Origin: Jiella mangrovi
GTDB taxonomy: Bacteria > Pseudomonadota > Alphaproteobacteria > Rhizobiales > Rhizobiaceae
Length of the DNA stretch: 64,000 nucleotides
Assembly: GCF_017815135.1 (NCBI RefSeq)
Contig: NZ_JAGJCF010000024.1
Span: 1 to 64,000, forward strand
Reading direction: 5' to 3'
Part shown: in pieces, positions 31,644-49,583 of the stretch
Layout of the letters: the number at the start of each line of letters is the position of its first letter
Position numbering within the stretch: the first letter of the stretch is position 1
Made by a program: the position numbers and the translations under genes
The notes under the pieces: model-generated
Database searches by the model: none
What the model saw: the letters and a program-made list of their open reading frames with translations, nothing else
What the model was told of the DNA's origin: nothing

Positions 31644-34430
31644 CTAGATGGCGCTCGCCGGCCGCTCGACCCGGGCTCCGTCGATGATGCCCTTGATTTC
31701 GCTCCGGCACGAGCCGCAATTCGTGCCGGCCTTCAGGAGCTTGCCCACCTCGTCGAGGCTGACGGCCCGGCCCGAGACGATCGCCGCCGAGATCTCGTTC
31801 ACGCCGACCGAAAAGCACGAACAGACGATGGCGCCCGGATCCGGTCGATCGGCTCCGCCACGGCCGGCAAGGAGACGGAAGCGCTCGCGCGGGGCGTGGC
31901 GCGACGCAAGCGATGCGGCGGCCCATACGCGCGAGACGGCGACGGGCTCGCGCGAAAGGTACAGCGCGGCGACAAGGCGCTCGCCGGCAAAGGCGGCGAA
32001 GCGATGAGCCCCGGTCGCCTCGTCGTGATAGGCGAGAATTGCCGCTTTCGGCACGCCCGAGAGCTTCTCGGCGAGGATTGACGGCTCTTCGAGGGGAGAC
32101 AGGCCGGCCATTTCCAGCCGATAGCCACCGTCCGCCCGTGCGACCGCGAAATAATCGAGCCCGGCCGTGTCGGGCCGCTCTGCGGTCACCGCAAACCCGT
32201 ACCAGACTGCCTCGAACCTTCGCAGATGGACGCTGGTCGACTTCAGTCCGGGCTGGCCGGAAACGGGGTCCGTGGCCGGCGAGACGAGAGCATCGACCCG
32301 GCCCTTGGATGACGTCTCGCCAGTCCAGTGCATCGGCACGAACACCGAACCGGGGCGTTGCCGCTCGCTGACCAGGGCACGGACGACGATTTGCCCGCGT
32401 GGCGACGACACCACCACGAGATCGGCCTCGGCAAGACCGAGACGGGAAGCGTCCGCCGGATTGATCTCGGCATAGGGCTCGGCGATGTGGGCCGAAAGCC
32501 TCGCCGACAGCCCGGTGCGGGTCATGGTGTGCCAGTGATCGCGTACCCGGCCGGTGTTGAGAATAAGGCCGTCGTCGCTTCGTCGCGGGCTATCGGCCCG
32601 TTCATCGCCGGCCCGTTCATCGCCGGTTCCGTCCATGCGCTCCGCCGCAGCGCTGCGGGCATCGTCTGGCCGCCGCTTCAGCGGCGTTGGAACGAAGCGG
32701 GCGCGCTGGTCGGCGTGATAGAACCTGCCATCGGCGAAGAAGCGGCTGCCGGCTTCCATCGCCGGGCCCGCAGGAGCGGCGTTTGTGCGGGGCTGCCCCG
32801 GCTGCGGCCATTGCACCGGGGCGAGCGTGTCGTATTGCGCCTCATCGAGCCCGGCGAGGCCACCGATGTCGAAATCTCGCGAGCCTTCATTCGCATGGGC
32901 CGACAGCCGGGCATGCTCGGCGAAGATCACGGCGGGGCTGTCATAGGCGAAGGCCGGGCCGAAGCCCATGCGCCGTGCAACTGCGCAAATGGCCCACCAG
33001 TCGGGCCGGGCCTCGCCCGGCAACGGCAGGAAGGCCCGCTGGCGGGAGATGCGCCGCTCGGAATTCGTGACCGTCCCGTCCTTCTCGCCCCAGGCCGCGG
33101 CCGGGAAGGCGACGGCGGCGTATTTCAAAGTATCGGTCTTCTCGACGACATCGGAAACGACGACGAAGGGACAGGCGGCGAGCGCCCGGGCGACGGCATC
33201 GGCATCGGGCATCGAGACGACCGGATTGGTGCCCATGATCCAGATCGCCCTGATCTGGCCGGAGGCGACCGCCTCGAACATCTCGACCGCTTTGAGGCCC
33301 GGCCGCTCGGCCAGTCGCGGCGCGTCCCAGAAGTCGCGGACGATGTTGCGGTGGGGCTCGTCCTCGATCGCCATGTGGGCGGCAAGCATGTTGGCCATGC
33401 CGCCGACCTCGCGCCCGCCCATGGCGTTGGGCTGGCCGGTGATCGAGAACGGCCCCATGCCCGGCCGGCCGATCCGGCCGGTGGCGAGGTGGCAGTTGAG
33501 GATGGCGTTGACCTTGTCGGTGCCGCAGACCGACTGGTTGACGCCCTGGCTGTAGACGGTGACGACCTTTTCGTGCCGGGCAAAGAGCGCATAAAAGCGC
33601 TCGATCAGATCCCTCTTCAGACCGGTCGCTTCGGCAACCTCGGCAAGCCTCAGATTGCGGGCGGCCTTCAATGCCGCAACAAACCCTTCGGTATGACCGG
33701 CCACATAGTCGCAATGGATGGCTCCGGCCTCGGCGAGATAGGGCAAAAGCCCCGCAAACAGCGCCACGTCGCCGTCGGCCGCGATCGGCAGGTGAAGGTC
33801 GGCGATATCCGCCGTCATCGTCCGGCGCGGGTCGATCAGCACCACCTTCATCGCCGGCCGCGCGGCCTTGGCGGCGGCAAGGCGCTGATAGATCACCGGA
33901 TGGCACCAGGCGAGATTGGAGCCGACGAGGACGACGAGATCGGCGAGCTCCAGATCCTCATAGGTGCCTGGCACCGTGTCCGACCCGAAAGCGCGGCGAT
34001 GGCCGGCAACGGAGGAGGCCATGCAGAGGCGGGAGTTGGTGTCGATATTGGCCGAGCCGATGAAGCCCTTCATCAGCTTGTTGGCGACGTAATAGTCCTC
34101 GGTCAGAAGCTGGCCGGAGACATAGAAGGCGACCGAATCCGGCCCGTATTCGGCGATGGTGGCCGAAAACCGTTCGGCGACGAGGTCGAGCGCCGTGTCC
34201 CAGTCGGTCCTCACGCCATGATGGGTGGGGTGGAGCAGCCGGCCTTCCATCTGCAACGTCTCGCCGAGCGCCGAGCCCTTGGAGCACAGCCGGCCGAAAT
34301 TTGCCGGATGCTCAGGGTCCCCGGCGATGGTGACGCCGCCATCCGCCCGCGGCGTCGCCAGCACGCCGCACCCGACCCCGCAATAGGCGCAGGTGGTGCG
34401 GACGGTGGTGGCGGTGGGCGCGGCGTCCAT
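31644..34430 (-). CDS. nasA: Assimilatory nitrate reductase catalytic subunit, with C-terminal BFD domain
   Basis: Reduces nitrate to nitrite in the cytoplasm with a molybdenum bis-MGD cofactor. The protein has 928 residues. The N-terminal CAYCGVGCGV...GRLCSKG cysteines bind a 4Fe-4S cluster; ANIDTNSRLCMASSV precedes the molybdenum site. Residues about 870-920 add a BFD-type [2Fe-2S] domain (CSCFSV...TNCGSC), usual for NasA that receives electrons from NADH or ferredoxin partners. The start is the ATG at 34428-34430; the longer open frame comes from reading repeat copy E. It is the last gene of the minus-strand nitrite/nitrate reduction unit, separated from cynS by 308 bases with a repeat pair. 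Confidence 0.95.
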   Translation of the reverse strand: MDAAPTATTVRTTCAYCGVGCGVLATPRADGGVTIAGDPEHPANFGRLCSKGSALGETLQMEGRLLHPTHHGVRTDWDTALDLVAERFSATIAEYGPDSVAFYVSGQLLTEDYYVANKLMKGFIGSANIDTNSRLCMASSVAGHRRAFGSDTVPGTYEDLELADLVVLVGSNLAWCHPVIYQRLAAAKAARPAMKVVLIDPRRTMTADIADLHLPIAADGDVALFAGLLPYLAEAGAIHCDYVAGHTEGFVAALKAARNLRLAEVAEATGLKRDLIERFYALFARHEKVVTVYSQGVNQSVCGTDKVNAILNCHLATGRIGRPGMGPFSITGQPNAMGGREVGGMANMLAAHMAIEDEPHRNIVRDFWDAPRLAERPGLKAVEMFEAVASGQIRAIWIMGTNPVVSMPDADAVARALAACPFVVVSDVVEKTDTLKYAAVAFPAAAWGEKDGTVTNSERRISRQRAFLPLPGEARPDWWAICAVARRMGFGPAFAYDSPAVIFAEHARLSAHANEGSRDFDIGGLAGLDEAQYDTLAPVQWPQPGQPRTNAAPAGPAMEAGSRFFADGRFYHADQRARFVPTPLKRRPDDARSAAAERMDGTGDERAGDERADSPRRSDDGLILNTGRVRDHWHTMTRTGLSARLSAHIAEPYAEINPADASRLGLAEADLVVVSSPRGQIVVRALVSERQRPGSVFVPMHWTGETSSKGRVDALVSPATDPVSGQPGLKSTSVHLRRFEAVWYGFAVTAERPDTAGLDYFAVARADGGYRLEMAGLSPLEEPSILAEKLSGVPKAAILAYHDEATGAHRFAAFAGERLVAALYLSREPVAVSRVWAAASLASRHAPRERFRLLAGRGGADRPDPGAIVCSCFSVGVNEISAAIVSGRAVSLDEVGKLLKAGTNCGSCRSEIKGIIDGARVERPASAI

Positions 34431-35261: not shown

Positions 35262-37118
35262 TCATCGCGCCAGAAGCGCGGCGAGAATGACGACGAGTAT
35301 GGCGAGGATTGCCGAGACCGCCTGCCAGAAGCGGACCGGATTTCTCAGCGCCAGGGGCGGGGCTTCGGGCGAAACGAAGGCCGGGTTCGGGTGGGCGAGG
35401 TCATGGACGAACTCGGCAACTTCGGCATAGCGGCGCGCGGGCTCGATCGCGACGGCCCGTCGCAGCGCGCCTTCGACGAAGTCGGGCACGTCCACCGTCT
35501 CGCTGCCGGCCGGCTGATAGGCGAGGCGGCGCTGGTCGCGGGCGGACCGGCTGCGGGCGAGCGCCGCGCCATAGGGCAGGCGGCCGGTGAGCATGTGATA
35601 GGCGAGGACACCGAGGGAAAAGACGTCCGAGCGCACCCGGCCGACATCGCCGCGGAGTTGCTCGGGCGCCGCGAACTGCAGGGCGCCTGGGTGCCGGCTG
35701 TCGGCATCGAACGCCCGCGCCTCGGCGACGCCGGCGACCCGCGCTGCGCCGAAATCGATCAGCGTCACATGGCCATCGGGCCCCAGCATGACGTTTTCCG
35801 GCCTGAGATCCTGATGCACCATCTCCTTGCGGTGCATGGCCTGCAGCCCGTTGGCGATGCCGGTGACGATGCGGCAAACGTCAGCGAGCGGCAGCTGCGG
35901 CGTCTCGTCGAGCACGGTGCGGAGCGTGTGCCCATCGAGAAGCTCCATTGCCGCATAGCGCGCCGTCGGCGGCCGGCTGCGCGAGGCCGGCTTCAGGCAA
36001 TGGGGGCTGGAAAGCCGCGCGGCGACCCATTCTTCCATCAGAAAGGCGCGGCGGGCCGCCGGGTCGCCGGCAAGGTCCGAGGCGAGGAACTTCAGCACCG
36101 CGGCCTTGCCGGTCTCGACGTCGCGGGCGGAAAGGACATGGCTGCGTGGCCCGACATGCAGGACGCCCTCGATCCGCCAGCCGTCGAATATCGTGCCGAC
36201 CTCTGGCATTGCGGCCGGCGGTTCGAGATCGCCGCCTTCCAGCCATTCGGCGGCGTCGGCGGCCGGCAGGCGGTCGATCCGCACGATCTGGACCGTCAGG
36301 TTGTCGGTGCTGCCATTTTCCAGCGCCATGGCCGCGATCGCCTTCGCCGCACCGTCGAGGTCGTCGCCGCGTTCACGCACCAGCCGGCAAAGCGCCGCCG
36401 GCGAGACGTAGTCGTGGACACCGTCGGTTGTCAGCAGAAAGACGTCACCCTGGCGGATCGGGAGGGCCTGATGGTCGATCTCGACATGCGGCCCCATGCC
36501 GAGGGCGCGGGCGAGATGGGTCTCGCTGGCCGACAGGGTCAGCCGGTGATCCTCGGTCAGCGGCTCGGCTGTGTGGCCGGAAAGCCGTGCGATGCGGCCG
36601 TCGCCAATATGGAAGAGATGGGCCGTGCGGCCTTTGAGGACGAGGGCGTCGAAGGTGGTGACATGGCCGCGATCGTCACTGCCGCCGTCATGGGAGGATC
36701 GGGCGGTCCGGCGCGTTTCGCCATGAAGCCAGGCATTGGTCGCGGCGATCACCTGGGCGGCCGACTGGCGGACGCTCCAGGCCTCGGAGGTGCAGTAATA
36801 GTCGGAAAGGAAGCTTTTGACCGCCGTTTCGGCGGCGATGCGGCCGAAGCTCGACGAGGAGATGCCGTCGGCAAGGGCAATGGCGATGCCCTTGGTGGTG
36901 ATTGCCGGCCGGCCCGGGACGATGGCGCCGTGAAAATCCTGGTTCTGCGCTTTGCGGCCGGCCTCCGACCACTGGCCGAGGGAGACGGCAAGCCCTGTCG
37001 CCGTCTCGTCCTGGATGGTCGCCCGATCCCGGTGGTCCCTGCCTGCGACCATGCCGGTCGAAATCGTCCCGTCGGGCGGGAAGATTTCCTCTGGCGAACG
37101 CAGGAGGGGCCGGGTCAT
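35262..37118 (-). CDS. Bifunctional PP2C phosphatase / serine-threonine protein kinase
   Basis: A 618-residue fusion. The N-terminal 285 residues or so are a PP2C-type phosphatase (NQDFHGAI, ALADGISSSS, HIGDGRIARL, LLTTDGVHDY, STDNLTVQIV give the metal-binding aspartates). Residues about 320-570 are a protein kinase: catalytic loop VHQDLRPENVML, LIDFGAARV as the DFG motif, and FAAPEQL. The glycine-rich loop is poorly kept. A C-terminal membrane helix (AVSAILAILVVILAALLA) tethers it to the inner membrane. It sits between the nitrite channel and cynS, so its substrate may be a nitrogen-assimilation protein (inference). The start is the ATG at 37116-37118. Confidence 0.9.
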   Translation of the reverse strand: MTRPLLRSPEEIFPPDGTISTGMVAGRDHRDRATIQDETATGLAVSLGQWSEAGRKAQNQDFHGAIVPGRPAITTKGIAIALADGISSSSFGRIAAETAVKSFLSDYYCTSEAWSVRQSAAQVIAATNAWLHGETRRTARSSHDGGSDDRGHVTTFDALVLKGRTAHLFHIGDGRIARLSGHTAEPLTEDHRLTLSASETHLARALGMGPHVEIDHQALPIRQGDVFLLTTDGVHDYVSPAALCRLVRERGDDLDGAAKAIAAMALENGSTDNLTVQIVRIDRLPAADAAEWLEGGDLEPPAAMPEVGTIFDGWRIEGVLHVGPRSHVLSARDVETGKAAVLKFLASDLAGDPAARRAFLMEEWVAARLSSPHCLKPASRSRPPTARYAAMELLDGHTLRTVLDETPQLPLADVCRIVTGIANGLQAMHRKEMVHQDLRPENVMLGPDGHVTLIDFGAARVAGVAEARAFDADSRHPGALQFAAPEQLRGDVGRVRSDVFSLGVLAYHMLTGRLPYGAALARSRSARDQRRLAYQPAGSETVDVPDFVEGALRRAVAIEPARRYAEVAEFVHDLAHPNPAFVSPEAPPLALRNPVRFWQAVSAILAILVVILAALLAR

Positions 37119-37141: not shown

Positions 37142-37987
37142 TTATTCGGCAGGCTCGGCCAGCGGGCTGACCGGTCCGGCCGCCGCACGAGAAGCCCGCG
37201 TCGCGTAGTGGGTCGAGTAGAGCGTCGCGCCGACGAAGGTCAGGCCGCCGACGACATTGCCGATGATCGTCGGGATCTCGTTGTAGAGGAGATAGTCCAT
37301 CACGGTGAACTGGCCGCCCAGGATGATGCCGGACGGGAACAGGAACATGTTCACGATGGAATGCTCGAAGCCGAGATAGAAGAAGACGAGGATCGGCATC
37401 CACATGGCGATGACCTTGCCGCCCACCGAGGTCGACATCATCGCCGCAACGACGCCGGTCGAGACCATCCAGTTGCACATGACGGCGCGGATGAAGAGCG
37501 TCAGCATGCCGCCGAAGCCCGCCGCCGCATAGCCGATCGTGCGGCCCTCGCCGATATGGCCGATCTTCTGGCCGACGGCGTTGGGTGCCTCGGTGAAGCC
37601 CATGGTGAAGGTGATCGCCATGAACAGCGCCACCGTCAGCGCGCCGGCGAAGTTGCCGCAGAAGACGAGGCCCCAGTTGCGGGCGAGGCCCTTCATGTCG
37701 CAGCCCGGCCGCTTGTCGAGGAGCGCCAGCGGAACGAGGGTGAAGACACCGGTGAGAAGATCGAAGCCGAGGAGATACAGCATGCAGAAACCGACCGGGA
37801 AGAGCAGCGCTCCGACCAGCGGATTGCCGGTGTTGACGGTGATCGTCACGGCGAAGGCGGCGGCGAGCGCCAAGATCGCGCCCGCCATGTAGGAGCGGAT
37901 CAGCGTATCCTTGGTCGACATGAAGATCTTCGCCTCGCCGGCATCGACCATCTTGGTCACGAATTCCTTGGGTGCGAGATAGGACAT
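37142..37987 (-). CDS. Formate/nitrite transporter family channel
   Basis: A 281-residue FNT channel with six membrane segments, expected to move nitrite across the inner membrane as a pentamer. Markers are NWGLVFCGNFAGAL, MCNWMV and FFYLGFEHSIVNMF, which holds the central histidine of the family. Placed between nirD and the kinase gene, it is better read as a nitrite channel (NirC-like) than a formate channel. Confidence 0.92.
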   Translation of the reverse strand: MSYLAPKEFVTKMVDAGEAKIFMSTKDTLIRSYMAGAILALAAAFAVTITVNTGNPLVGALLFPVGFCMLYLLGFDLLTGVFTLVPLALLDKRPGCDMKGLARNWGLVFCGNFAGALTVALFMAITFTMGFTEAPNAVGQKIGHIGEGRTIGYAAAGFGGMLTLFIRAVMCNWMVSTGVVAAMMSTSVGGKVIAMWMPILVFFYLGFEHSIVNMFLFPSGIILGGQFTVMDYLLYNEIPTIIGNVVGGLTFVGATLYSTHYATRASRAAAGPVSPLAEPAE

Positions 37988-38204: not shown

Positions 38205-38558
38205 CTATTCGGCGGCTTGCGTCATGTCGGCTGCCGCCTCGGCCAGAGACAGGTCGATCGCTCCCGTCAGCGGATCGAGGCGGATGGCGTAGGTCCGCAC
38301 CCGGCCTTCGTCCGGGCCCTGCATCTCGCCGGTTTCCAGCGAGATCACCGCATTGTGGAGCGGACAGGTGACCGAGGCGTCGTGGACGATTCCTTGGCTG
38401 AGCGGCCCGCCCTTGTGGGGGCAGCGATCCTCGGTGGCGAAGACGTGGTCTTCGGCGGTGCGGAACACCGCGATCCGCCCGAAGGGCGTCGCGACGCAGC
38501 GCGAGCCACGCTTCGGGATGTCGGTGAGTTGGCCGATCGGATGCCACGCCTTGCTCAT
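38205..38558 (-). CDS. nirD: Nitrite reductase (NADH) small subunit
   Basis: A 117-residue Rieske-type subunit of the assimilatory NirBD nitrite reductase. The cluster motifs are CPHKGG at about 46-51 and CPLHNA at about 65-70, both with the Cys-X-His pattern. Its ATG overlaps the nirB stop, so the two are translationally coupled. A 217-base gap to the next gene holds nothing I recognise. Confidence 0.94.
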   Translation of the reverse strand: MSKAWHPIGQLTDIPKRGSRCVATPFGRIAVFRTAEDHVFATEDRCPHKGGPLSQGIVHDASVTCPLHNAVISLETGEMQGPDEGRVRTYAIRLDPLTGAIDLSLAEAAADMTQAAE

Positions 38559-41002
38559 TCCGCCGCCTCCTTGAAGCCGATCTCGGCCATCGGCTTGAAC
38601 TCGTGGGAGGCCACGCCGCCCGTTGCGCGATCCGCCCAGGGATCGCGCTGGGCGGTCTCCTGGCTTTTGACGAAGCGATCGAAATAGTGGCGGCGCTTTG
38701 CGGCATCCTCGACGACGGCGGCCTTGATCGACTCCATGCCGACCCGTCTCAGCCATTTGTAGATGCGCTCGAGATAGTGGCCCTGCTCGCGATAGAGCTG
38801 GACGAGGGCAACGATCATCTCGATCGCCTCCTCCTCCGTTCGCACCTGCGTCAGCACCTCTGTTCCCTTGATGTCGAGGCCCGCTGCGCCGGCAAAGTGG
38901 ATCTCGTAGCCGGCGTCGGTGCAGATGACGCCGACATCCTTGCAGGTCGCTTCGGCGCAGTTGCGCGGGCAACCCGAGACCGCCATCTTGACCTTGGCGG
39001 GGGTCCAAGAGCCCCACATGAACTTCTCGATGCGCATGCCGAGGCCGGTGGAGTCCTGCGTGCCGAACCGGCACCAGTCGGTTCCGACGCAGGTCTTCAC
39101 CGTTCGGAGCGCCTTGCCGTAGGCGGCGCCCGAGACCATGCCGGCGGCGTTGAGATCGGCCCAGACGGCGGGCAGATCCTCCTTCTTGACGCCCAGCATG
39201 TCGATGCGCTGGCCGCCGGTGCATTTGACGGAGGGGATGTTGAACTTGTCGACGACGTCGGCGATCGCCCGCAGCTCGCTCGCCGAGGTCATGCCGCCCC
39301 ACATGCGCGGCACGACGGAATAGGTGCCGTCCTTCTGGATGTTGGCGTGGACGCGCTCGTTGATGAAGCGCGACTGCTCGTCGTCGCGATATTCGCCGGG
39401 CCAGTCGGCGATGAGATAGTAGTTCAGCGCCGGGCGGCACTTGGCGCAGCCGCAGGAGGTCTTCCATTCGAGCTCCTGCATGACCTCGGGGATCGACTTC
39501 AGCTCCTTGGCGACGATCAGACGGCGCACGTCCGCATGGCCGAGATCGGTGCAGCCGCACATCGGCTTGACCGCCTGGGGGTTGAACGAGGCCCCCAGCG
39601 TCAAGGCCATCAGCTGTTCGACGAGCCCGGTGCAGGTGCCGCAGGAGGACGAGGCCTTGGTGTGGGCGCGCACCTCGTCGAGCGAGGTCAGGCCCTTCGC
39701 CGTGATCGTGCCGGTGATCTTCGATTTGCACACGCCGTTGCAGCCGCAGATCTCCGCGTCATCCGGCAAGGCTGCAACGGCCGCCATAGGGTCCAGCGGC
39801 GATCCCCCCTGATAGGACTGGCCGAAGATCAAGGTATCGCGCATGGCTGCGACCGAGGACCCGTCGCGGATCAGGTCGAAAAACCAGTTTGCGTCGCCGG
39901 TGTCGCCATACATCACCGCGCCGACCAGCCGGTCGTTCTCGATGACGAGGCGGCGGTAGACGCCGTGGGACGGATCGCGCAGGACGATCTCCTCGCGGCC
40001 CTCGCCGGCGGCGAAGTCGCCTGCCGAAAAGAGGTCACAGCCGGTGACTTTCAGCTTGGTCGAAAGCTCCTTGACGGCGAAACTGTCCGCTTCTCCCATG
40101 AGAACCTTCGCCAGCACCTTGGCCTGATCGTAAAGCGGGGCGACGAGGCCGAAGAGCATGCCGTTGAACTCGGTGCATTCGCCGACGGCGTAGATGTCGG
40201 GATCGGACGTGCGCAGCTGGGCGTCGACGACGATGGCGCGGTTGACCGCGAGCCCCGCCGCTTTGGCGATTTCCGCGGACGGACGAATACCCACCGCCAT
40301 GACCACGAGATCGGCCGGAAGCACCGTGCCGTCGGCGAGCTCCACGCCCTCGACGCGCTCGGTGCCGAGGATCTTCTGCGTCGAGGCCTTTGTCATCACG
40401 GCGATGCCGCGCTTTTCCAGATCCCGCTTCAGAAGATAGCCCGCCGCCTCGTCGAGCTGGCGATCCATCAGATGGCCCGACAGATGAAGGACGGTGACCT
40501 CCATACCCCGGAGTCGAAGACCGGCTGCGGCTTCGAGGCCGAGCAGCCCGCCGCCGATGACGACCGCCTTGGCGCCTTGCGTCGCCGAGGCCTCGATCAT
40601 CACATTGGTGTCGTCGAGATCGCGGTAGGTGATGACGCCTTCAAGATCGCGGCCCTCGACGGGCACGATGAAGGGCACCGATCCCGTCGCGATGATCAGC
40701 TTGTCATAGGGCGCCTCGCCGTTCTCGCCGACGACGACCTTGCGGGCACGATCGATCGAGACGACCTTTTCGCCGAAGCGGCAGGCGACCTTGTAGCCGG
40801 CGTACCAGCCTTCATTGTGGGTGACGATCTCGTCGAAGCTTTTCTCGCCGGAAAGGACGGGCGAGAGCATGATGCGATTGTAGTTGCCGCGCGGTTCGGC
40901 GTTGAACAGCGTGACCTCATAGGCTTGCGGATCGGTCTCGAAGAGGTTTTCGAGCACCCGGCCCGATGCCATGCCGGCGCCGATGACGACCAGTTTCTGC
41001 AT
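38555..41002 (-). CDS. nirB: Nitrite reductase (NADH) large subunit
   Basis: Reduces nitrite to ammonium with NADH; 815 residues, cytoplasmic. Order of domains: FAD/NAD oxidoreductase (VVIGAGMASGRVLENL at the start, VVIGGGLLGLEAAAGL in the middle); BFD-like [2Fe-2S] with CGCNGVCKSKI and SSSCGTCTGL, followed by a further C-rich segment SCGCAKC; and sulfite/nitrite reductase repeats ending in VSGCPRNCAEATCKD, which ligates the 4Fe-4S/siroheme centre. The start is the ATG at 41000-41002, with AGGAAG before it and 11 bases after the GAF gene. Confidence 0.96.
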   Translation of the reverse strand: MQKLVVIGAGMASGRVLENLFETDPQAYEVTLFNAEPRGNYNRIMLSPVLSGEKSFDEIVTHNEGWYAGYKVACRFGEKVVSIDRARKVVVGENGEAPYDKLIIATGSVPFIVPVEGRDLEGVITYRDLDDTNVMIEASATQGAKAVVIGGGLLGLEAAAGLRLRGMEVTVLHLSGHLMDRQLDEAAGYLLKRDLEKRGIAVMTKASTQKILGTERVEGVELADGTVLPADLVVMAVGIRPSAEIAKAAGLAVNRAIVVDAQLRTSDPDIYAVGECTEFNGMLFGLVAPLYDQAKVLAKVLMGEADSFAVKELSTKLKVTGCDLFSAGDFAAGEGREEIVLRDPSHGVYRRLVIENDRLVGAVMYGDTGDANWFFDLIRDGSSVAAMRDTLIFGQSYQGGSPLDPMAAVAALPDDAEICGCNGVCKSKITGTITAKGLTSLDEVRAHTKASSSCGTCTGLVEQLMALTLGASFNPQAVKPMCGCTDLGHADVRRLIVAKELKSIPEVMQELEWKTSCGCAKCRPALNYYLIADWPGEYRDDEQSRFINERVHANIQKDGTYSVVPRMWGGMTSASELRAIADVVDKFNIPSVKCTGGQRIDMLGVKKEDLPAVWADLNAAGMVSGAAYGKALRTVKTCVGTDWCRFGTQDSTGLGMRIEKFMWGSWTPAKVKMAVSGCPRNCAEATCKDVGVICTDAGYEIHFAGAAGLDIKGTEVLTQVRTEEEAIEMIVALVQLYREQGHYLERIYKWLRRVGMESIKAAVVEDAAKRRHYFDRFVKSQETAQRDPWADRATGGVASHEFKPMAEIGFKEAAE

Positions 41003-42065: not shown

Positions 42066-42359
42066 ATGGTTGAATTCGACTGGGACGAGACGAAGCGCGC
42101 CGCCAATGTCGCCAAGCACGGCGTGGATTTCACGCTGGCGCGGCAGATCGATCTTGATGCGGCAGACATCGAGGTCGACGATCGCCGTGACTACGGCGAG
42201 GTCCGGCTGATGGCGCGGGCCGAGATTGAGGACCGCCTCTACGTCATGATCTTCACCTATCGAGGCGACGTCGTGCGGGTTATAAGTTTGCGAAAGGCAA
42301 ATGATCGCGAGGTCTTGCGCTATGAAAAGAAGACGTCCCCTGATCCGACCGACCCCTGA
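42066..42359 (+). CDS. brnT: BrnT family toxin
   Basis: A 97-residue ribonuclease toxin of the BrnT (DUF497) family with a RelE-like fold. The N-terminal FDWDETKRAANVAKHGVDF and the C-terminal VVRVISLRKANDREVLRYE are family signatures. Its 3' end overlaps the start of brnA1 by several dozen bases, as is usual for the pair. It is divergent from the GAF-nirB unit across 116 bases and lies on the opposite strand to the whole nitrate cluster. Confidence 0.9.
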   Translation: MVEFDWDETKRAANVAKHGVDFTLARQIDLDAADIEVDDRRDYGEVRLMARAEIEDRLYVMIFTYRGDVVRVISLRKANDREVLRYEKKTSPDPTDP

Positions 42360-42618
42360 GGAAGACGCCGCCATCACCGCCGCGGCGCTCTCCGATCCCG
42401 ACAATCCACCGCTCACCGACGAGCAGATGGACCGCATGCGCCCGGCGCGTGACGCGATGCCGCGCGAGTTGTTCGAAAAGCTGACCGGGACGAAGGCGGT
42501 TTTCGTACCCGACGCAGTCGTTTCGCATTTCAAGGAAAAGTTCGGTCCCGACTGGGAAGAGGCGATGCGTGACGTCCTGCGGGAGGCGATGGAACGTAAA
42601 GACGAGGCTGCGGAGTAA
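42322..42618 (+). CDS. brnA: BrnA antitoxin, first copy
   Basis: A 98-residue antitoxin. The N-terminal part (LIRPTPEEDAAITAAALSDPDNPPLTDEQ) is the toxin-binding region of the family. The C-terminal part (FKEKFGPDWEEAMRDVLREAM) resembles the ribbon-helix-helix DNA-binding end, through which BrnA represses its own operon. The ATG at 42322 is chosen by match with the second copy; an ATG seven codons upstream is in frame. Confidence 0.85.
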   Translation: MKRRRPLIRPTPEEDAAITAAALSDPDNPPLTDEQMDRMRPARDAMPRELFEKLTGTKAVFVPDAVVSHFKEKFGPDWEEAMRDVLREAMERKDEAAE

Positions 42619-42692
42619 ATCTCAGAAAAGCGAATGATCGAGAGGTGCTGCGCTATGAAAGCGAGACCAAAGCTGATCCGTCCGACACCTGA
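42615..42692 (+). pseudogene. brnT C-terminal remnant
   Basis: Immediately at the brnA1 stop, a different frame reads VNLRKANDREVLRYESETKA and then DPSDT and a stop. It aligns without gaps to the end of the intact BrnT (VISLRKANDREVLRYEKKTS, DPTDP, stop). Only about 25 codons remain, without a start, so this is the 3' piece of a second brnT. It shows that the downstream brnA2 came from a duplicated brnT-brnA unit whose toxin gene was lost. Confidence 0.8.
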
Positions 42693-42963
42693 AGAAGACG
42701 CCGCCATTACCACGGCCGCGCTGTCCGATCCCGACAATCCGCCGCTGACCGACGAGGACTGGGCCCGCATGCGCCCGGCCCGCGAGGTCATGCCGCCGTC
42801 CTTCTTCGAGCCGGTCGGTTCGTCGCCGCCGCGGCGGTTCTTCATGGCGGAGATCGAATTCGACGTCGCCGACCACTTCACGCGCGAATTCGGCGAGGAT
42901 TGGCAGCGCCGCCTCAACGAAGCGTTGCGGGAGGTCATCACCCGGAAACAGGCCGCTGAATAG
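42655..42963 (+). CDS. BrnA-like antitoxin, second copy without toxin
   Basis: A 102-residue paralogue of the first BrnA. The segment LIRPTPEEDAAIT.AALSDPDNPPLTDE is almost identical in both, the middle is divergent (PSFFEPVGSSPPRRFF), and the C-terminal helix-rich part is related (DVADHFTREFGEDWQRRL). It begins inside the brnT remnant exactly as brnA1 begins inside brnT. With no partner toxin it may neutralise the adjacent BrnT or a BrnT encoded elsewhere. Confidence 0.8.
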   Translation: MKARPKLIRPTPEEDAAITTAALSDPDNPPLTDEDWARMRPAREVMPPSFFEPVGSSPPRRFFMAEIEFDVADHFTREFGEDWQRRLNEALREVITRKQAAE

Positions 42964-43003: not shown

Positions 43004-44761
43004 TCAGGCTGCCTCCGCCTTGGGCCGCGCGTCGGCACCTGTCTCTGACTCCGCCGGGGTCGCGGGTTCCGCCGGATGGGCGCCGCCCTCGTATTCTTCG
43101 AGGAAGCCGAGCAGCTGCTCGCGATAGAGGTAGTAGTCCGGGTGCTCCATCAGCGCCTTGCGGCTGCGCGGGCGGGGCAGATCGACCTTCATGATCTTGC
43201 CGATCTTCGCCATTGGACCGTTGGTCATCATCACCACCCGGTCGGCGAGCAGGATCGCCTCGTCGACGTCGTGAGTGACGCAGATCGCGGTGACCTGGGT
43301 GCGCTTCCACACGTCCATCAGAACGTCCTGAAGCTCCCAACGGGTGAGCGAATCCAGCATGCCGAAGGGCTCGTCGAGGAGGAGGAGCTTCGGCGACAGG
43401 GCAAAGGCGCGGGCGATGCCGACGCGCTGCTTCATGCCGTTGGAAAGGTCCGCCGCCTTGCGGTGCATCGCGTCTGCGAGGCCGACCCGGTGGAGATAGT
43501 GCTCGACGACATCGCGGCGCTCGGCGGGCGCGGCGTTCGGATAGACCCGGTCGACGCCCAGCGCGACGTTCTCGCGGGCCGTCAGCCAGGGCATCAGCGA
43601 CGGCGCCTGGAACACCACGGCCCGGTCGGGGCCGGCGCCGGAGACTTCGCGGCCATCGAGGACGATGCCGCCCGAGGAAATGTCGGTGAGGCCGGCCGCC
43701 ATGGAAAGGACGGTCGACTTGCCGCAGCCCGAATGGCCGATCAGGGTGATGAACTCGCCCTTTTCCATCTTCATGTCGAAGCCGTCGACGACGGTGAGCG
43801 GGCCCTTCGGCGTCGGATAGACCTTCTTGACCTCGAAGAACTCGACGAAGCCGCGCGAGATCGGCGATTGGGACGCGTCGAGATAGGCCTTGGGAAGGTC
43901 CGGCGCCGGGCCCTTCTTCATGCCCGGAACGATCGGCACGACATTGGGCAGGGCGACGGCGTCGCCGGCCTCGGCGCTCGCATGCCTGCCCTGTTCCATC
44001 AGATAGTGGGTGACGTCCCGGCGCAGGCGCTTGAAGGTGTCGTTCGTGTTCATCGCCGTGCGGTCGCGCGGCCGCGGCAGATCGACGGTGAAGGAAGGTC
44101 CGAGCGAAGCGCGCGGGCCGGGGTTCAGCGGGATGATCCGGTCGGCGAGCAGGATCGCCTCGTCAACATCGTTGGTGATGAGGACGATCGTCTTCTTCTC
44201 GATCTGGCTGATCGCCGCGAATTCGTCCTGGAGCTTGGCTCGCGTCAAAGCGTCGAGGGCCGAGAGCGGCTCGTCGAGGAGGAGGATCTCCGGGCTCATG
44301 GCCAAGGCCCGCGCCACCGAGACGCGCTGGCGCATGCCGCCGGAAAGCTCCGCCGGTTTGCGGCCCTCGGCATGGGAGAGGCCGACCATCTCGATATATC
44401 TGTCGATCCGGGCGTTGCGGGCAGCCTTCGGCTCCCTGGCGAACACCGTATCGACGGCGAGGGCGACATTGCCGCGCACGGTCAGCCAGGGCATCAGCGA
44501 ATAGGACTGGAAGACGAGGCCTCGCTCGGGCCCCGGGCCGGTGATCGGCTTGCCCTTCATCAGGACCTCGCCGCTATCGGCCGCGATCAGACCGGCGAGC
44601 AGCGACATCAGCGTCGTCTTGCCGGAGCCCGAAAAGCCGACAATGGCGACGAACTCGCCTTCCTCGACGGTGAGATCGAGGTCTTTCAGAATTTCGGCCC
44701 GGGCCTTGCCCTCGCCATAGCTCCTGGAGACGGATTTCAGTTCGATGATCGGATGCGTCAT
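43004..44761 (-). CDS. Nitrate ABC transporter ATPase, two fused domains (NrtCD-type)
   Basis: A 585-residue protein with two complete nucleotide-binding domains. The first has Walker [10 protein letters not shown], signature LSGGMRQR, Walker [13 protein letters not shown], but the switch histidine is replaced ([10 protein letters not shown]). The second has GHSGCGKST, signature [20 protein letters not shown] and an intact switch [10 protein letters not shown]. It pairs with the NrtB-like permease. The start at 44761 is preferred because GGAGAG lies seven bases before it; an ATG five codons upstream overlaps the permease stop. Confidence 0.92.
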
Positions 44762-44775
44762 GGCCTGGCTCTCCA

Positions 44776-45870
44776 TCACCGCGTGCCGGAGAAGGTGAAG
44801 GCGGACTGGAGCGCGGCCATGATCCGGTCGAGGATAAAGCCGACGATGCCGATGGTGATGACCGCGACGATGATGCGGGCAAGCGAATCCGACGAGCCGT
44901 TCTGGAACTCGTCCCAGACGAACTTGCCGAGACCGGGATTCTGGGCGAGCATCTCGGCGGCGATCAGCACCATCCAGCCGACACCGAGAGAGAGGCGGAG
45001 GCCGGTGAAGATCAGCGGCATCGCAGAGGGCAGCACCAGCTTGGTGATGGTCTTCGTCGTCGACAGCTGCAGCACCTTGCCGACATTGACGAGGTCCTTG
45101 TCGATCGAGGCGACGCCCAGCGAGGTGTTGATCAGTGTCGGCCAGAGCGAGCAGAGGGTCACGGTGATCGCCGAGACGACCATGGATTTCGGCAGGGCGT
45201 CGGAGGCGTTCACGTAGAGCGCCGAGACGATCATCGTGACGATCGGCAGCCAGGCCAACGGCGAGACCGGCTTGAAGATCTGGATCAGCGGGTTGAGCGC
45301 GCCGTTGACGGTCTTCGACAGGCCGCAGGCGATCCCCAGCGGCACGGCGATGACCGTCGCCAGCACGAAGCCGAGGAACACCGTCTTCAGGCTGGTCAGG
45401 ATCTGTTCGGGATAGGTCGGCGCGCCGGTATAGTCGCGGACCTTGACCCGGTCGGCATGGCCTGCCTCGATCAGCTTCTGATTGCGCGCGTCCTGCCGCT
45501 CGTAGAACGCCGCCTTGTCGGCGGAGCTGCGCTGGTAGTCGGCGTAAAGCGATTCCACCTGGCCCCAGACCGCGACGGGCCCGGGAACGGTGCCGAGCGA
45601 GGTCTGCACCTGGGGGGCGAGCGCCGCCCAAAGGCCGAGAAAGGCGATGATGCCGATCAGCGGCACGCAAAGGCCCATCCAGAGGCCGCGCAGATTGGAG
45701 CGCGGATCGTCGCCGGCGGCGATCTTCATGATCGGCACCGACCAGCCGAGGCCGAAGGCGGTCAGTGGCCCGGTGGCGCGGGTGATCCGCATCATGCGCT
45801 TTTCACGCTTCAGGGCCCGGCGCTCGGCGTCGGACAAGTCGTGGCCCATGAAATCGGAAGCAGTGCTCAT
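44776..45870 (-). CDS. nrtB: Nitrate ABC transporter permease
   Basis: A 364-residue inner-membrane permease. The first membrane segment is near residue 65, an unusually long periplasmic loop follows (about 90-160, rich in charged residues), then five segments of the binding-protein-dependent permease domain. The EAA-like loop is [23 protein letters not shown]. The position between the substrate-binding protein and the ATPase supports nitrate (or nitrate/nitrite) as the substrate. Confidence 0.92.
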
Positions 45871-45971: not shown

Positions 45972-47348
45972 TCAGTTGGAAAGGCTTGCGACGTCTTCCT
46001 TGCCCTTCAGGCCGATCTGGAATTTTTCGAGATAGGCGTTGGGCTTCCTGCCGTCATATTCGACGCCATCGATGAATTCGGCGGTCGCCGGCTTGTAGCC
46101 GTCGGTCTCGGGGACATCGGAGGCCTCGATCAGGCCGTCGTCGATCAGCGAGGCGGCGGCCTGTCTGTAGATGTCCGGCCGGTAGACGCTCTTGGCGGTC
46201 TCTTCATACCACGCGTCCGGCTTTTCCTCGGAGATCTGGCCCCAGCGGCGCATCTGCGTGAGGTACCAGGTGGCGTCGGAATAGTAGGGATAGGTCGCGA
46301 ACTTCTTGAAAAAGACGTTGAAGTCCGGCGCCGGGCGCGTGTCGCCCTTTTCATATTCGAAGGTGCCGGTCATCGAGTTGGCGATGACCTTCTCGTCGGC
46401 GCCGACATATTCCGGCCGCGACAGGATCTTCACCGCTTCGACCCGGTTTTCGGGGCTTTCGTCGAGCCATTTGCCGGCGCGGATCAGCGCCTTGGTGAGG
46501 GCGATGGTGGTCTGCGGGTTTTCCTCGACGAACTTTGCGGTCAGGCCGAAGACCTTTTCCGGATTGTCCTTCCAGATCTCGTAGTCGGTGATGACCGGCA
46601 CGCCGATGCCCTTGAAGACGGCCGCCTGGTTCCACGGCTCGCCGACGCAGTAGCCCTGGATCGTGCCGGCTTCCAGCGTCGCCGGCATCTGCGGCGGCGG
46701 CGTCACCGACAGGAGAACGTCGGCCTTGATCTGACCGGAGGTGTCGCTCGGCGAGTAGAAGCCTGGGTTCAGCCCGCCGGCGGCGAGCCAGTAGCGCAGC
46801 TCGTAATTGTGGGTCGAGACCGGGAAGACCATGCCCATGTTGAACGGCTTGCCAGCCGCCTTGTACTGGTCGACGACGGGCTTCAGCGCGCTCGCCGAGA
46901 TCGGGTGCTCCGGCTTGCCTTCGGCGTTTTCGGGAATGTGCTTCTTCATCTCCGCCCAGACGGCGTTCGACACGGTGATCCCGTTGCCGTTGAGGTCCAT
47001 GGAGAAGGGGGTGACGATGTGGGCCTTGGTGCCGAAGCCGATGGTCGCGGCGAGCGGCTGGCCGGCCAGCATGTGGGCGCCGTCGAGCTCGCCGGTGATC
47101 ACCCGGTCGAGCAGCACCTTCCAGTTCGCCTGGGGCTCCAGCGTGACGTAGAGCCCCTCGTCCTCGAAGAAGTGCATCTCCTTGGCGATGGCGAGCGGCG
47201 CCATGTCGGTCAGCTTGATGAAGCCGAATTTCAGCTCGTCCTTTTCCGGGATGAGCATCTCGGCGCTGGCCGGAAGGGCGGTGACGGCGGCGCCGGCGAG
47301 CGTCGCGCCGAGAAAGAAACGGCGGGTGATGGCAGTCAGCAGGGTCAT
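45972..47348 (-). CDS. nrtA: Nitrate ABC transporter substrate-binding protein
   Basis: A 458-residue periplasmic binding protein of the NrtA/CmpA family. The N terminus [25 protein letters not shown] is a twin-arginine signal with the RRFFLG motif, so it is exported folded. Family landmarks are [32 protein letters not shown], and [15 protein letters not shown], residues that line the anion pocket. Start: ATG at 47348, nine bases after GGGAAA; a GTG two codons upstream is the alternative. The 523-base leader in front contains the NasT target. Confidence 0.94.
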
Positions 47349-47404
47349 GGTCACAGCTTTCCCGTTGCCTGGCGTAAATGAAACGCCGGCTGGTCGATGT
47401 CTGG

Positions 47405-47479
47405 AAAAGAAAAAGGCTGCCCGACACCCTGCGCCACGAAACGAAGTCGTTGGCGATACGAAGAAGTGTCGGCAGCCTT
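47405..47479 (-). terminator. Leader terminator controlling the nitrate transport operon
   Basis: On the minus strand AGGCTGCCGACAC (47478 to 47466) pairs with GTGTCGGGCAGCCT (47427 to 47414), with one bulged base, and TTTTTCTTTT follows. The loop contains a further small hairpin (CGCCA...TGGCG). The 5' arm of this stem is shared with hairpin P2 of the ANTAR target, so the two structures exclude each other. Confidence 0.88.
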
Positions 47480-47505
47480 GCCAATGACGCCCGCCGTTGG
47501 ACGTC
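47469..47505 (-). promoter_or_regulatory. Tandem hexaloop hairpins, NasT (ANTAR) RNA target
   Basis: On the minus strand P1 is GACGUCC-AACGGC-GGGCGUC (47505 to 47486), seven pairs closing a six-base loop. After a single A, P2 is UUGGC-AAGGCU-GCCGA (47484 to 47469), five pairs closing a six-base loop. Both loops have A at position 1 and G at position 4, the known recognition rule for ANTAR proteins. P2 overlaps the 5' arm of the terminator, so binding of NasT to both hairpins would prevent termination. nasT lies just upstream. Confidence 0.88.
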
Positions 47506-47871
47506 CGATATTCAGACGATCTCCGATCGCCTCAGGATCAATGTGTAGAACAGCTCAAGGAATGGTGCAACGCGGAACGCGCGGTTTTCGCAAGATTTTT
47601 GCGCGGCGAGCAGTTATGCTTAGAAAATAGACAGTCTGGATAGGCGGTGGGCAGGAAGTGTGATTGTGCAATGAGCAAATGGTCGGCCGGGCGTGATCGA
47701 GACGGCCGGCTCCAGCGGATAGCGACGGTCAAGGCGCAAGGGTTCACCGAATGGCAGCATGCTGACTGAGAGGGAACCGGTTTGGAAAAAATGCCCGCAG
47801 AGATCCCGGTCACCGCTCCCGGTCGCCCAAAATCGGGGACCGAACGGAGCTTCTTTGCCTCACCCGGCCGT

Positions 47872-48993
47872 TCACCCTTTCGCGTCGAACAAGCCAGCCG
47901 GACGCTCGCCCGCAACGGCGGCGCCTTCCGCCCCCGTGCTTCCCATGGCCGCGTCGAATAGCGCGGGATCGAAGGTCTCGCCGGCGATGCGCGTGCCCGC
48001 CTCGGAGAGCGGGGCGTCGCGCCAGCGGGCCATCTGGCGGTAGAGCCAGCGGCCGTGCTCCGGGTCGGGCCGTGTCGCGCCTTGGCCGGAAAACACCATG
48101 AAATCGGGAATCTCGCGGGTTCGGCCAGACGCCGTTTCGAGCCGGCCCGTCAGGCCGGGCAGAAGCGTGGCGGGATCGACGCCAAGCCGGTCGGGCGAGG
48201 CCAGAAGCTTTGCGAGGCTGTCGAAATTTTCCAGGTTCGCGCACCAGTCCGCGGCGTCGGCGAGAGCCTGGATCAGTCTGGTCAGCGCCTCGGGATTATC
48301 ACTGGCAAAGCTTTGGGTGACGCCGAGAACCTTCTCCGGCCCGCGCCGCCAGATCTCGGCCCGGCTGGTGACGATGCGCCCGGCGCTCTGCCTCACGGCG
48401 ATCGTGCCCCAGGGCTCGCCCGCGCAAAATCCGTCGATACCGCCGCTCGCCAGGGCGTCGGGCATCAGCGACGGCGGTACGACGGTGATCTCGACGTCGC
48501 GCTCGGGGACGACGCCAGATACGGCGAGCCAGTATCTCAGATCGTAGTTGTGGCTCGAATGGGGATGCACGACAGCCAGCCTGAGCGGCGGCTCGCCGGC
48601 CTCCGCCCGCTTGCGCAAGACGTCGGCGAAGGCGCGGCCGGCGCTGGCCGGCGCGGCCTCGTAGTCGGCCGGCCCGGCAGCATCCATGCGTTCGGCGACG
48701 GCTTTCGACACGACGACGCCATTGCCGCCGAGTGCCAGCACCATCGGCGCCAGCATCCGAACGGGGAGGGGGCCGAGACCGAGATTGGCGGCGATCGGCA
48801 TTGGTGCCAGCATATGGGCGCAGTCGAACTGGCCGACGCCGATCCGGTCGCGGATCGTCGCCCAGGACATCTCACGCTGCAGGGAGAGGGTGATGCCGCG
48901 CTCTTCGGCAAAGCCCATATGGGCGGCAACGATCAGGACGGCGCTGTCGAGAAGCGGAACGTAGCCGGCGCGGATGAAGCTCGGTGCGGCCAT
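47872..48993 (-). CDS. nasS: Nitrate sensor NasS (cytoplasmic NrtA-like protein)
   Basis: A 373-residue relative of NrtA/CmpA without any signal peptide: it begins directly with SFIRAGYVPLLDSAVLIVAA. It keeps the anion-pocket landmarks FDCAHMLAPMPIAANLG, SSHNYDLRYWLA and IDGFCAGEPWGTIAV. Known NasS proteins bind NasT without nitrate and release it when nitrate is bound. It is coupled to nasT: the ATG overlaps the nasT stop. A GTG one codon earlier is also possible. Confidence 0.92.
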   Translation of the reverse strand: MAAPSFIRAGYVPLLDSAVLIVAAHMGFAEERGITLSLQREMSWATIRDRIGVGQFDCAHMLAPMPIAANLGLGPLPVRMLAPMVLALGGNGVVVSKAVAERMDAAGPADYEAAPASAGRAFADVLRKRAEAGEPPLRLAVVHPHSSHNYDLRYWLAVSGVVPERDVEITVVPPSLMPDALASGGIDGFCAGEPWGTIAVRQSAGRIVTSRAEIWRRGPEKVLGVTQSFASDNPEALTRLIQALADAADWCANLENFDSLAKLLASPDRLGVDPATLLPGLTGRLETASGRTREIPDFMVFSGQGATRPDPEHGRWLYRQMARWRDAPLSEAGTRIAGETFDPALFDAAMGSTGAEGAAVAGERPAGLFDAKG

Positions 48994-49583
48994 CACTCGT
49001 CTCCGAGAAGCGTGTAGGCGGAAACGAGGCCCGCGGCGACCTCGCCGATCCGGCGGTTCTCGTTCATCGCGGTGCGGCGCAAAAGCTTATAGGCGGCCGC
49101 CTCGTCGATGTTCTTCGCCTTCATCAGGATGCCCTTGGCGCGGTCGATGACCTTGCGGTCGGCAAGTTCCGATTTCGCCTCGGCCAGCTCCCGCGTCAGC
49201 CGGTTGACGGCGTTGAAGCGCGAAATCGCCATTTCGAGGATCGGCTTGATCCGCTCCTTTTTCAGCCCGTCGACCACATAGGCCGAGACCCCAGCCTCGA
49301 TCGCCGCCTCGATCTCGGCGGTATCGGAGCGATCGACGAACATCGCCATCGGCCGCTTCACCGCGCGCGAGACCTGGAAGAAATGTTCGAGCTGGTCGCG
49401 ATTGGGATTTTCGAGATCGACGACGATGACGTCGGGTTTCAGCATCTCGATACGCTTGACGAGGCCGGCAACTGTCGTGACGATCGAGACGTTGCTGTGG
49501 CCGGCATCCTGCAGCCCGTCCTGAATGATCGAAGCTCGCAGGCCGTTATCGTCGACAAGCAGGATGTTGAGCGGTTGCGCCAT
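48993..49583 (-). CDS. nasT: Antitermination regulator NasT (ANTAR)
   Basis: A 196-residue two-domain protein. The N-terminal part is receiver-like (ILLVDDNGLRASII, VIVVDLENPNRD). Residues about 125-190 form the ANTAR RNA-binding bundle (ELADRKVIDRAKGILMKAKNIDEAAAYKLLRRTAMNENRRI). NasT binds paired hexaloop hairpins in nitrate-operon leaders and blocks termination. A matching target lies in the nrtA leader 1.5 kb downstream on the same strand. Confidence 0.95.
   Translation of the reverse strand: MAQPLNILLVDDNGLRASIIQDGLQDAGHSNVSIVTTVAGLVKRIEMLKPDVIVVDLENPNRDQLEHFFQVSRAVKRPMAMFVDRSDTAEIEAAIEAGVSAYVVDGLKKERIKPILEMAISRFNAVNRLTRELAEAKSELADRKVIDRAKGILMKAKNIDEAAAYKLLRRTAMNENRRIGEVAAGLVSAYTLLGDE

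Follow-up and report, generated by a model that had tools for sequence, protein, structure and literature searches.

What stands between nasS and nrtA in Jiella mangrovi, a complete antitermination switch operated by NasT or a plain terminator, and is the one-base linker between its two hairpins a peculiarity of this leader? We addressed these questions in the 64,000 nucleotides of contig NZ_JAGJCF010000024.1 from position 1 onwards (the window), combining folding, pattern scans, covariance models and comparison with relatives. The comparison makes it very probable that the region controls transcription of the nitrate-assimilation genes as a NasT-dependent antitermination leader, with NasT presumably the protein that binds it. 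The mechanism is most likely of the known NasT kind, shown elsewhere, and the window leader an ordinary case of it.

The gene context of the leader is established by the domain matches listed in Table 1. With an ANTAR gene and a gene for an NrtA-like sensor beside the leader, the arrangement is that of a NasS-NasT operon. Inspection of the nasS translation by eye did not reveal an N-terminal signal; at the N-terminus of NrtA we take a sequence, also judged by eye, to be a Tat-like signal. The start of nrtC is provisional, its frame opening further upstream. The nrt, nir and nas genes downstream probably form one transcript. Two small antisense genes, 42301-42618 and 42634-42963 on the plus strand, lie between nrtC and a GAF-domain gene; the latter of the two matches the BrnA antitoxin (E 2.4e-8), and the former has no Pfam match and looks similar to it by eye. 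Elsewhere in the genome, on contig C1, an AmiR-type ANTAR gene adjoins a periplasmic-binding-protein gene (locus L002, 1465-3104).

Table 1. The nrtA leader of the window, its putative promoter and the surrounding nitrate-assimilation genes
Feature	Coordinates	Strand	Basis or remark
nasT, receiver-like plus ANTAR RNA-binding domain, 196 aa	48993..49583	(-)	Pfam ANTAR E 2.6e-19, Response_reg E 1.8e-9
nasS, NrtA-like nitrate sensor, overlaps nasT end	47872..48996	(-)	Pfam NMT1_2 E 1.2e-68
Putative sigma-70-like promoter TTGCAC-N17-TACACA	47542..47570	(-)	Pattern common to clade leaders
P1 hairpin	47486..47505	(-)	Loop AACGGC; two pairs changed on both sides in relatives
Nominal linker, 1 base (A)	47485	(-)	Sequence and hairpin scan
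P2 hairpin, antiterminator	47469..47484	(-)	Loop AAGGCU; fold and scan
Intrinsic terminator	47413..47479	(-)	5' arm is P2 loop plus P2 3' arm
Terminator T-tract TTTTTCTTTT	47405..47414	(-)	Read from sequence
nrtA, nitrate-binding protein, first gene past leader	45972..47348	(-)	Pfam NMT1_2 E 8e-98; ATG start
nrtB, nitrate ABC permease	44776..45870	(-)	NCBIfam ntrB 164.9 bits, below cut-off 209; Pfam BPD_transp_1
nrtC, double nitrate ABC ATPase	43004..44671	(-)	NCBIfam ntrCD 580.3 bits, above cut-off
nirB, assimilatory nitrite reductase large subunit	38555..41002	(-)	Pyr_redox_2, NIR_SIR, NIR_SIR_ferr
nirD, Rieske-type small subunit	38205..38558	(-)	Rieske_2 E 1.7e-16
Formate/nitrite transporter	37142..37987	(-)	Form_Nir_trans E 1.4e-61
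PP2C phosphatase-kinase fusion	35262..37118	(-)	Pkinase, PP2C_2
nasA, assimilatory nitrate reductase	31644..34430	(-)	Molybdopterin E 1.1e-69, Molydop_binding, Fer2_BFD

On the minus strand between nasS and nrtA, two neighbouring hairpins, the first of them starting 367 bases past the nasS end at 47872, are followed by a terminator that ends in TTTTTCTTTT. P1 runs from its 5' arm GACGUCC (47505-47499) through the loop AACGGC (47498-47493) to the 3' arm GGGCGUC (47492-47486), and P2 from UUGGC (47484-47480) through AAGGCU (47479-47474) to GCCGA (47473-47469). Both loops have six bases, the first an A and the fourth a G (A1/G4), both are closed by a C-G pair, as in the NasR SELEX criterion (PMC7496416), and the stems of 7 bp (P1) and 5 bp (P2) compare with the at least 3 bp of ANTAR-target two-hairpin RNAs. 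The 5' arm of the terminator begins in the P2 loop at 47479 and pairs with 47429-47413; fold, scan and covariation agree that P2 and the terminator are mutually exclusive. The elements and their alternative pairing, as described in the initial annotation, are therewith established: the pair of hairpins one base apart was borne out, with correct coordinates, by sequence, fold and scan, the sharing of the P2 loop and 3' arm with the terminator was confirmed by fold and scan, and the upstream position of nasT and nasS by Pfam domain matches.

The predicted folding energy was -33.2 kcal/mol for the 79 nt of the terminator stretch (z -3.95, with none of 200 shuffles as good) and -18.3 kcal/mol for the 49 nt of P1+P2 (z -2.34, 6/200 shuffles as good). 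A transcript ending at the P2 end was predicted to fold into P1 plus P2 (-18.3), and the whole stretch to reach -45.0 kcal/mol as terminator versus -33.3 with P1+P2 forced; the same energetic behaviour was obtained for all six relatives tested. The predicted energy layout is that expected of a switch with termination as the default. One reservation applies to the hexaloop of P2, where the folding program preferred A1-U6 pairing to the open loop: the energy model drew P2 as a 6-bp stem with a tetraloop because A1 and U6 can pair.

According to the model, NasS would hold NasT when nitrate is absent, and without free NasT the nascent leader would fold into the terminator, so that RNA polymerase would stop ahead of nrtA. 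When nitrate or nitrite is present, NasS would release NasT, which would bind the emerging P1 and P2 via their A1/G4 loops and keep P2 out of the terminator stem, allowing transcription of the nrt, nir and nas genes. Protein binding, nitrate response and read-through are what we infer from work on Paracoccus, Bradyrhizobium, Klebsiella and Enterococcus. A two-hairpin model with an overlapping terminator has been described (PMC3369931), and EutV/eutP resembles the window leader in its two A1/G4 hexaloop hairpins, the second overlapping the terminator; EutV is phosphorylated, whereas NasT is released from NasS. The leaders of Paracoccus denitrificans nasA and Bradyrhizobium nosR share with the window nasT and nasS, a nitrate-responsive ANTAR protein and a hairpin leader ahead of nitrogen genes (PMC3795266, PMC5424462, PMC6759348), but here the leader is followed first by nrtA, a gene belonging to an ABC transporter. 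In Paracoccus, NasT binds the nasA leader and hairpin HI is required; mutation of hairpin HII, which we do not equate with P2, had little effect under nitrate (PMC3795266, PMC5424462). The Klebsiella nasF leader, served by NasR (NIT-ANTAR), has the nitrate signal and the C-G closed A1/G4 loops in common with the window leader (PMC7496416); unlike NasT-NasS, NasR is a one-component sensor.

How NasT would engage the two loops admits a variant that is compatible with this model and to which we give somewhat less than an even chance: NasT would bind one hairpin at a time, being recruited by P1 and then handed over to P2. The authors of the EutV-RNA crystal study argue that the two loops cannot be bound together by a single dimer, and they propose binding in succession (PMC8934654). 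A spacing that is compact and constant within the lineage suits hand-over and simultaneous binding equally well. What speaks against the variant is that NasR binds a two-hairpin RNA at ~1 uM and a single hairpin at ~12 uM (PMC7496416).

Considering both strands of the window together (128 kb), a scanner that demanded a pair of A1/G4 hexaloop hairpins, each with 4 bp or more, and a terminator overlapping the second returned a single match, the nrtA leader; when one strand of the window was shuffled 15 times (order-1 Markov), it returned none. A hold-out covariance model, built from 22 leaders none of which belongs to the window's clade, gave the leader 35.5 bits (E 1.1e-7); the runner-up in the window reached 12.6 bits (E 0.11). 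Model R1, trained with the window and close relatives, gave the window leader 53.5 bits, a circular value. Rfam yielded no match at gathering scores in the whole window, and at E up to 10 a single, chance-level match in 47300-47900. A search with the ANTAR covariance model had been proposed as a check on this locus; that check came out positive for the hold-out model from related leaders and empty for Rfam at its gathering scores. Class-wide, covariance matches with E <=0.01, the weak ones counted by score alone, turned up in 25 of 385 genomes.

In its own genome R1 produced 32 matches, the second-best at 24.6 bits. The five best after the window (L154-L158) had no double A1/G4 hairpin by the scan criteria and were rejected; therefore one convincing own-genome target is counted among the six best of the 32 matches.

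Conservation was assessed in the family, in which 243 of 297 genomes have some NasT match; 40 loci were taken from the match list, mostly from its top. The nasT of the window is 87 to 91% identical to the eight nearest named nasT genes, six of them from Jiella, which probably places the genome near Jiella and Aurantimonas. A NasS-like gene follows nasT in all 40 fetched loci, and an NrtA-like gene was annotated further on within the fetched stretch in 23. R1 matched 35 of the 40, 31 of which form its training set, so that the matches outside training are L041, L048, L049 and L059; it found nothing at L042, L044, L046, L051 and L067. The 4-bp stem demand misses most family leaders, in which P2 has 3 bp, and the scanner was relaxed for family counts; it then returned nothing in eight of the 40 loci (L041, L042, L044, L046, L048, L049, L051, L059), and a match in L067 with an implausible loop distance of 42 was removed before counting. 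Among 80 named nasT loci, some from genomes shared with the 40, R1 matched 49.

None of the nine core pairs is broken in any of the 30 distinct aligned leaders, although complete pairing and invariant A1/G4 are partly built in, because the scanner selected rows for exactly these. The scanner demanded no more than pairing in the P1 stem, where C5, C8, C9, G16, G17 and G20 do not vary across 32 rows and two pairs changed on both sides among the 30 distinct leaders. The P2 stem GGC/GCC shows no variation in 30 distinct rows, which speaks neither for nor against pairing. Two of five measures were not clearly above shuffles: pairs changed on both sides (55/500 shuffles as high) and further pair types (450/500). 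The contact between the P2 loop and the terminator 3' arm was tabulated in 72 distinct leaders, with 29 of 112 examined loci excluded as being without a leader. Loop position 3 faces the arm as A-U in 46 leaders, G-C in 21, C-G in 3, G-U in 1 and a C-U mismatch in 1, and position 6 as U-A in 51, U-G in 11 and C-G in 10. This covariation implies that the mutually exclusive pairing is itself maintained through sequence change, a result that is favoured because the 72 leaders were picked for a terminator overlapping P2. The leader is conserved among relatives.

A simpler proposal is that an intrinsic terminator, and nothing more, closes the nasTS transcript or fixes a basal level, the hairpins being incidental. 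The terminator does fold strongly alone and nasTS transcripts would also meet it, yet P1, with its six invariant stem bases and two double-changed pairs, lies outside the terminator, and under the hold-out model nothing else in the window comes near the score of the double hairpin; we consider this reading very improbable. That the leader answers instead to another ANTAR protein, such as the AmiR-like protein of the same genome, is scarcely credible: a second ANTAR gene is indeed present, but it has an AmiR-type N-terminus and lies on a different contig, next to a gene for a periplasmic binding protein, whereas the neighbours of the window leader are nasT and nasS, and nasT is paired with the NasS-like gene in 40/40 family loci. 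The complete NasT-type antitermination leader claimed in the initial annotation is strongly supported by the hold-out model, conservation and gene context, with NasT as its probable ligand.

Fulvimarina manganoxydans carries a leader (L041 and L082, the same contig) with one mismatch in P1 and a P2 loop of seven bases, or of five with a longer stem. It is a natural departure from the hexaloop rule with the terminator still present.

The elements upstream of the leader divide the family. Consensus forms of the sigma-54 and sigma-70 elements were used. A sigma-54-like -24/-12 element (10 to 12 of 12 positions) precedes P1 in all 22 family leaders outside the window's clade, at 33 to 40 bases in 21 and at 129 in one. 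In the window and nine clade leaders the best score was 7 to 9 of 12, the level of shuffles, and within 400 bases before nasT, at 48 loci including the window's own, the element likewise reached only 7 to 9 of 12. The sigma-70 consensus scan did not report a promoter in the leader. Clade leaders share the pattern TTGC[A/G]N, 17 bases, TA, present in 22/22 (16 distinct contigs), in 94 of 4,400 shuffles and in none of the 22 sigma-54-group leaders; it was chosen after viewing the alignment, and 5 of the 16 contigs lie outside that alignment and are close relatives of included ones. The loci concerned are L033-L041, L043, L073-L081, L085, L117 and the window. Judged from these patterns, the window's clade seems to have replaced a sigma-54 promoter with a sigma-70-like one and to have kept the antitermination switch.

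The linker of one base, singled out earlier as a special case of hairpin spacing, has that length because two weak pairs at the P2 foot (U-A, U-G) are counted; with P2 taken as 3 bp, the usual P2 in relatives, it has three bases. Across 32 leaders (31 family loci and the window) the linker is 1 in the window alone, 2 in 8, 3 in 9, 4 in 10, 5 in 3 and 6 in one, that is, 1 to 4 in 28 and 3 or less in 18. The loop-to-loop distance in the window leader is 13 bases. For 124 family matches, spread over 119 of 394 family genomes, distances inferred from match lengths are 13 in 59, the commonest value, 14 in 29, 15 in 17 and 10-12 or 16-17 in 19, so that 105 lie between 13 and 15. The inter-loop distance is steadier than the nominal linker in this lineage. 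What survives of the special case is that the lineage is more compact than eut; with linkers of 1 to 4 in 28/32 leaders and 13 as the family mode, the window leader does not stand apart.

Described ANTAR targets place the hairpins differently. Ramesh 2012 describes a variable linker between the stems and sets no limit to it, and the window leader, with 1 or 3 bases depending on the P2 count, has such a linker; counted as a single base, it lies outside the range of 2 to 25 by which actinobacterial RNAs were curated (PMC8164766). Native eut linkers are reported as 5 to 12, against 1 in the window leader, and an eutP linker of 3 or 14 cut induction drastically, these being linker lengths and not loop distances (PMC3369931). 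The eutP loops of Enterococcus faecalis begin at A29 (L1) and A53 (L2) (PMC3369931), from which we compute 18 bases between loops; the 13 of the window leader are 5 fewer. For NasR-type leaders we sampled 20 loci in which the open frame of the NIT gene is 404 to 504 aa long and found a leader in nine, all nine proteins being NIT plus ANTAR (8/20 when rescanned with other criteria). The loop distance is 20 to 23 in seven of the nine, 7 to 10 bases more than in the window, and 33 and 36 in the other two; leaders with long P1 stems have linkers of 1 (L250) and 2 (L248).

Outside the window's family, 40 nasT loci gave a candidate leader in 22, compared with 0/80 shuffled strands. Fourteen of these candidates have loop distances of 11 to 22 and the other eight of 34 to 45; a linker of 1 recurs in L280 and L281. 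In seven distant nasT loci (L271, L272, L273, L274, L277, L287, L296) the A1/G4 hairpins stand 39 to 45 bases apart. Candidates with such distances may enclose another hairpin; L273 has an apparent further hairpin between the two. There is no universal distance and no clean split between NasT and NasR; the distance looks like a property of each lineage and differs between ANTAR lineages. No statement of a lineage-specific loop distance for NasT leaders was recognised in the literature searched, which was covered in part.

As a tentative reading, which we would sooner doubt than adopt, the NasT leaders of the window's alphaproteobacterial family may form a compact class of ANTAR targets. The eutP spacing rule would predict failure of many of these leaders, and NasT geometry would therefore be unlike that of EutV, perhaps with P1 and P2 coaxially stacked. 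ANTAR searches with a required minimum linker could miss leaders like that of the window. Spacing also bears on the mode of the dimer, whether both loops are held or the protein is handed over from one to the other, and becomes a testable comparison between NasT, EutV and NasR, which deserves a trial at the bench for what it says of the lineage and not as a trait of the window leader. If the compact-class reading is true, hairpin spacing would be a property of the protein dimer that is tuned in each lineage.
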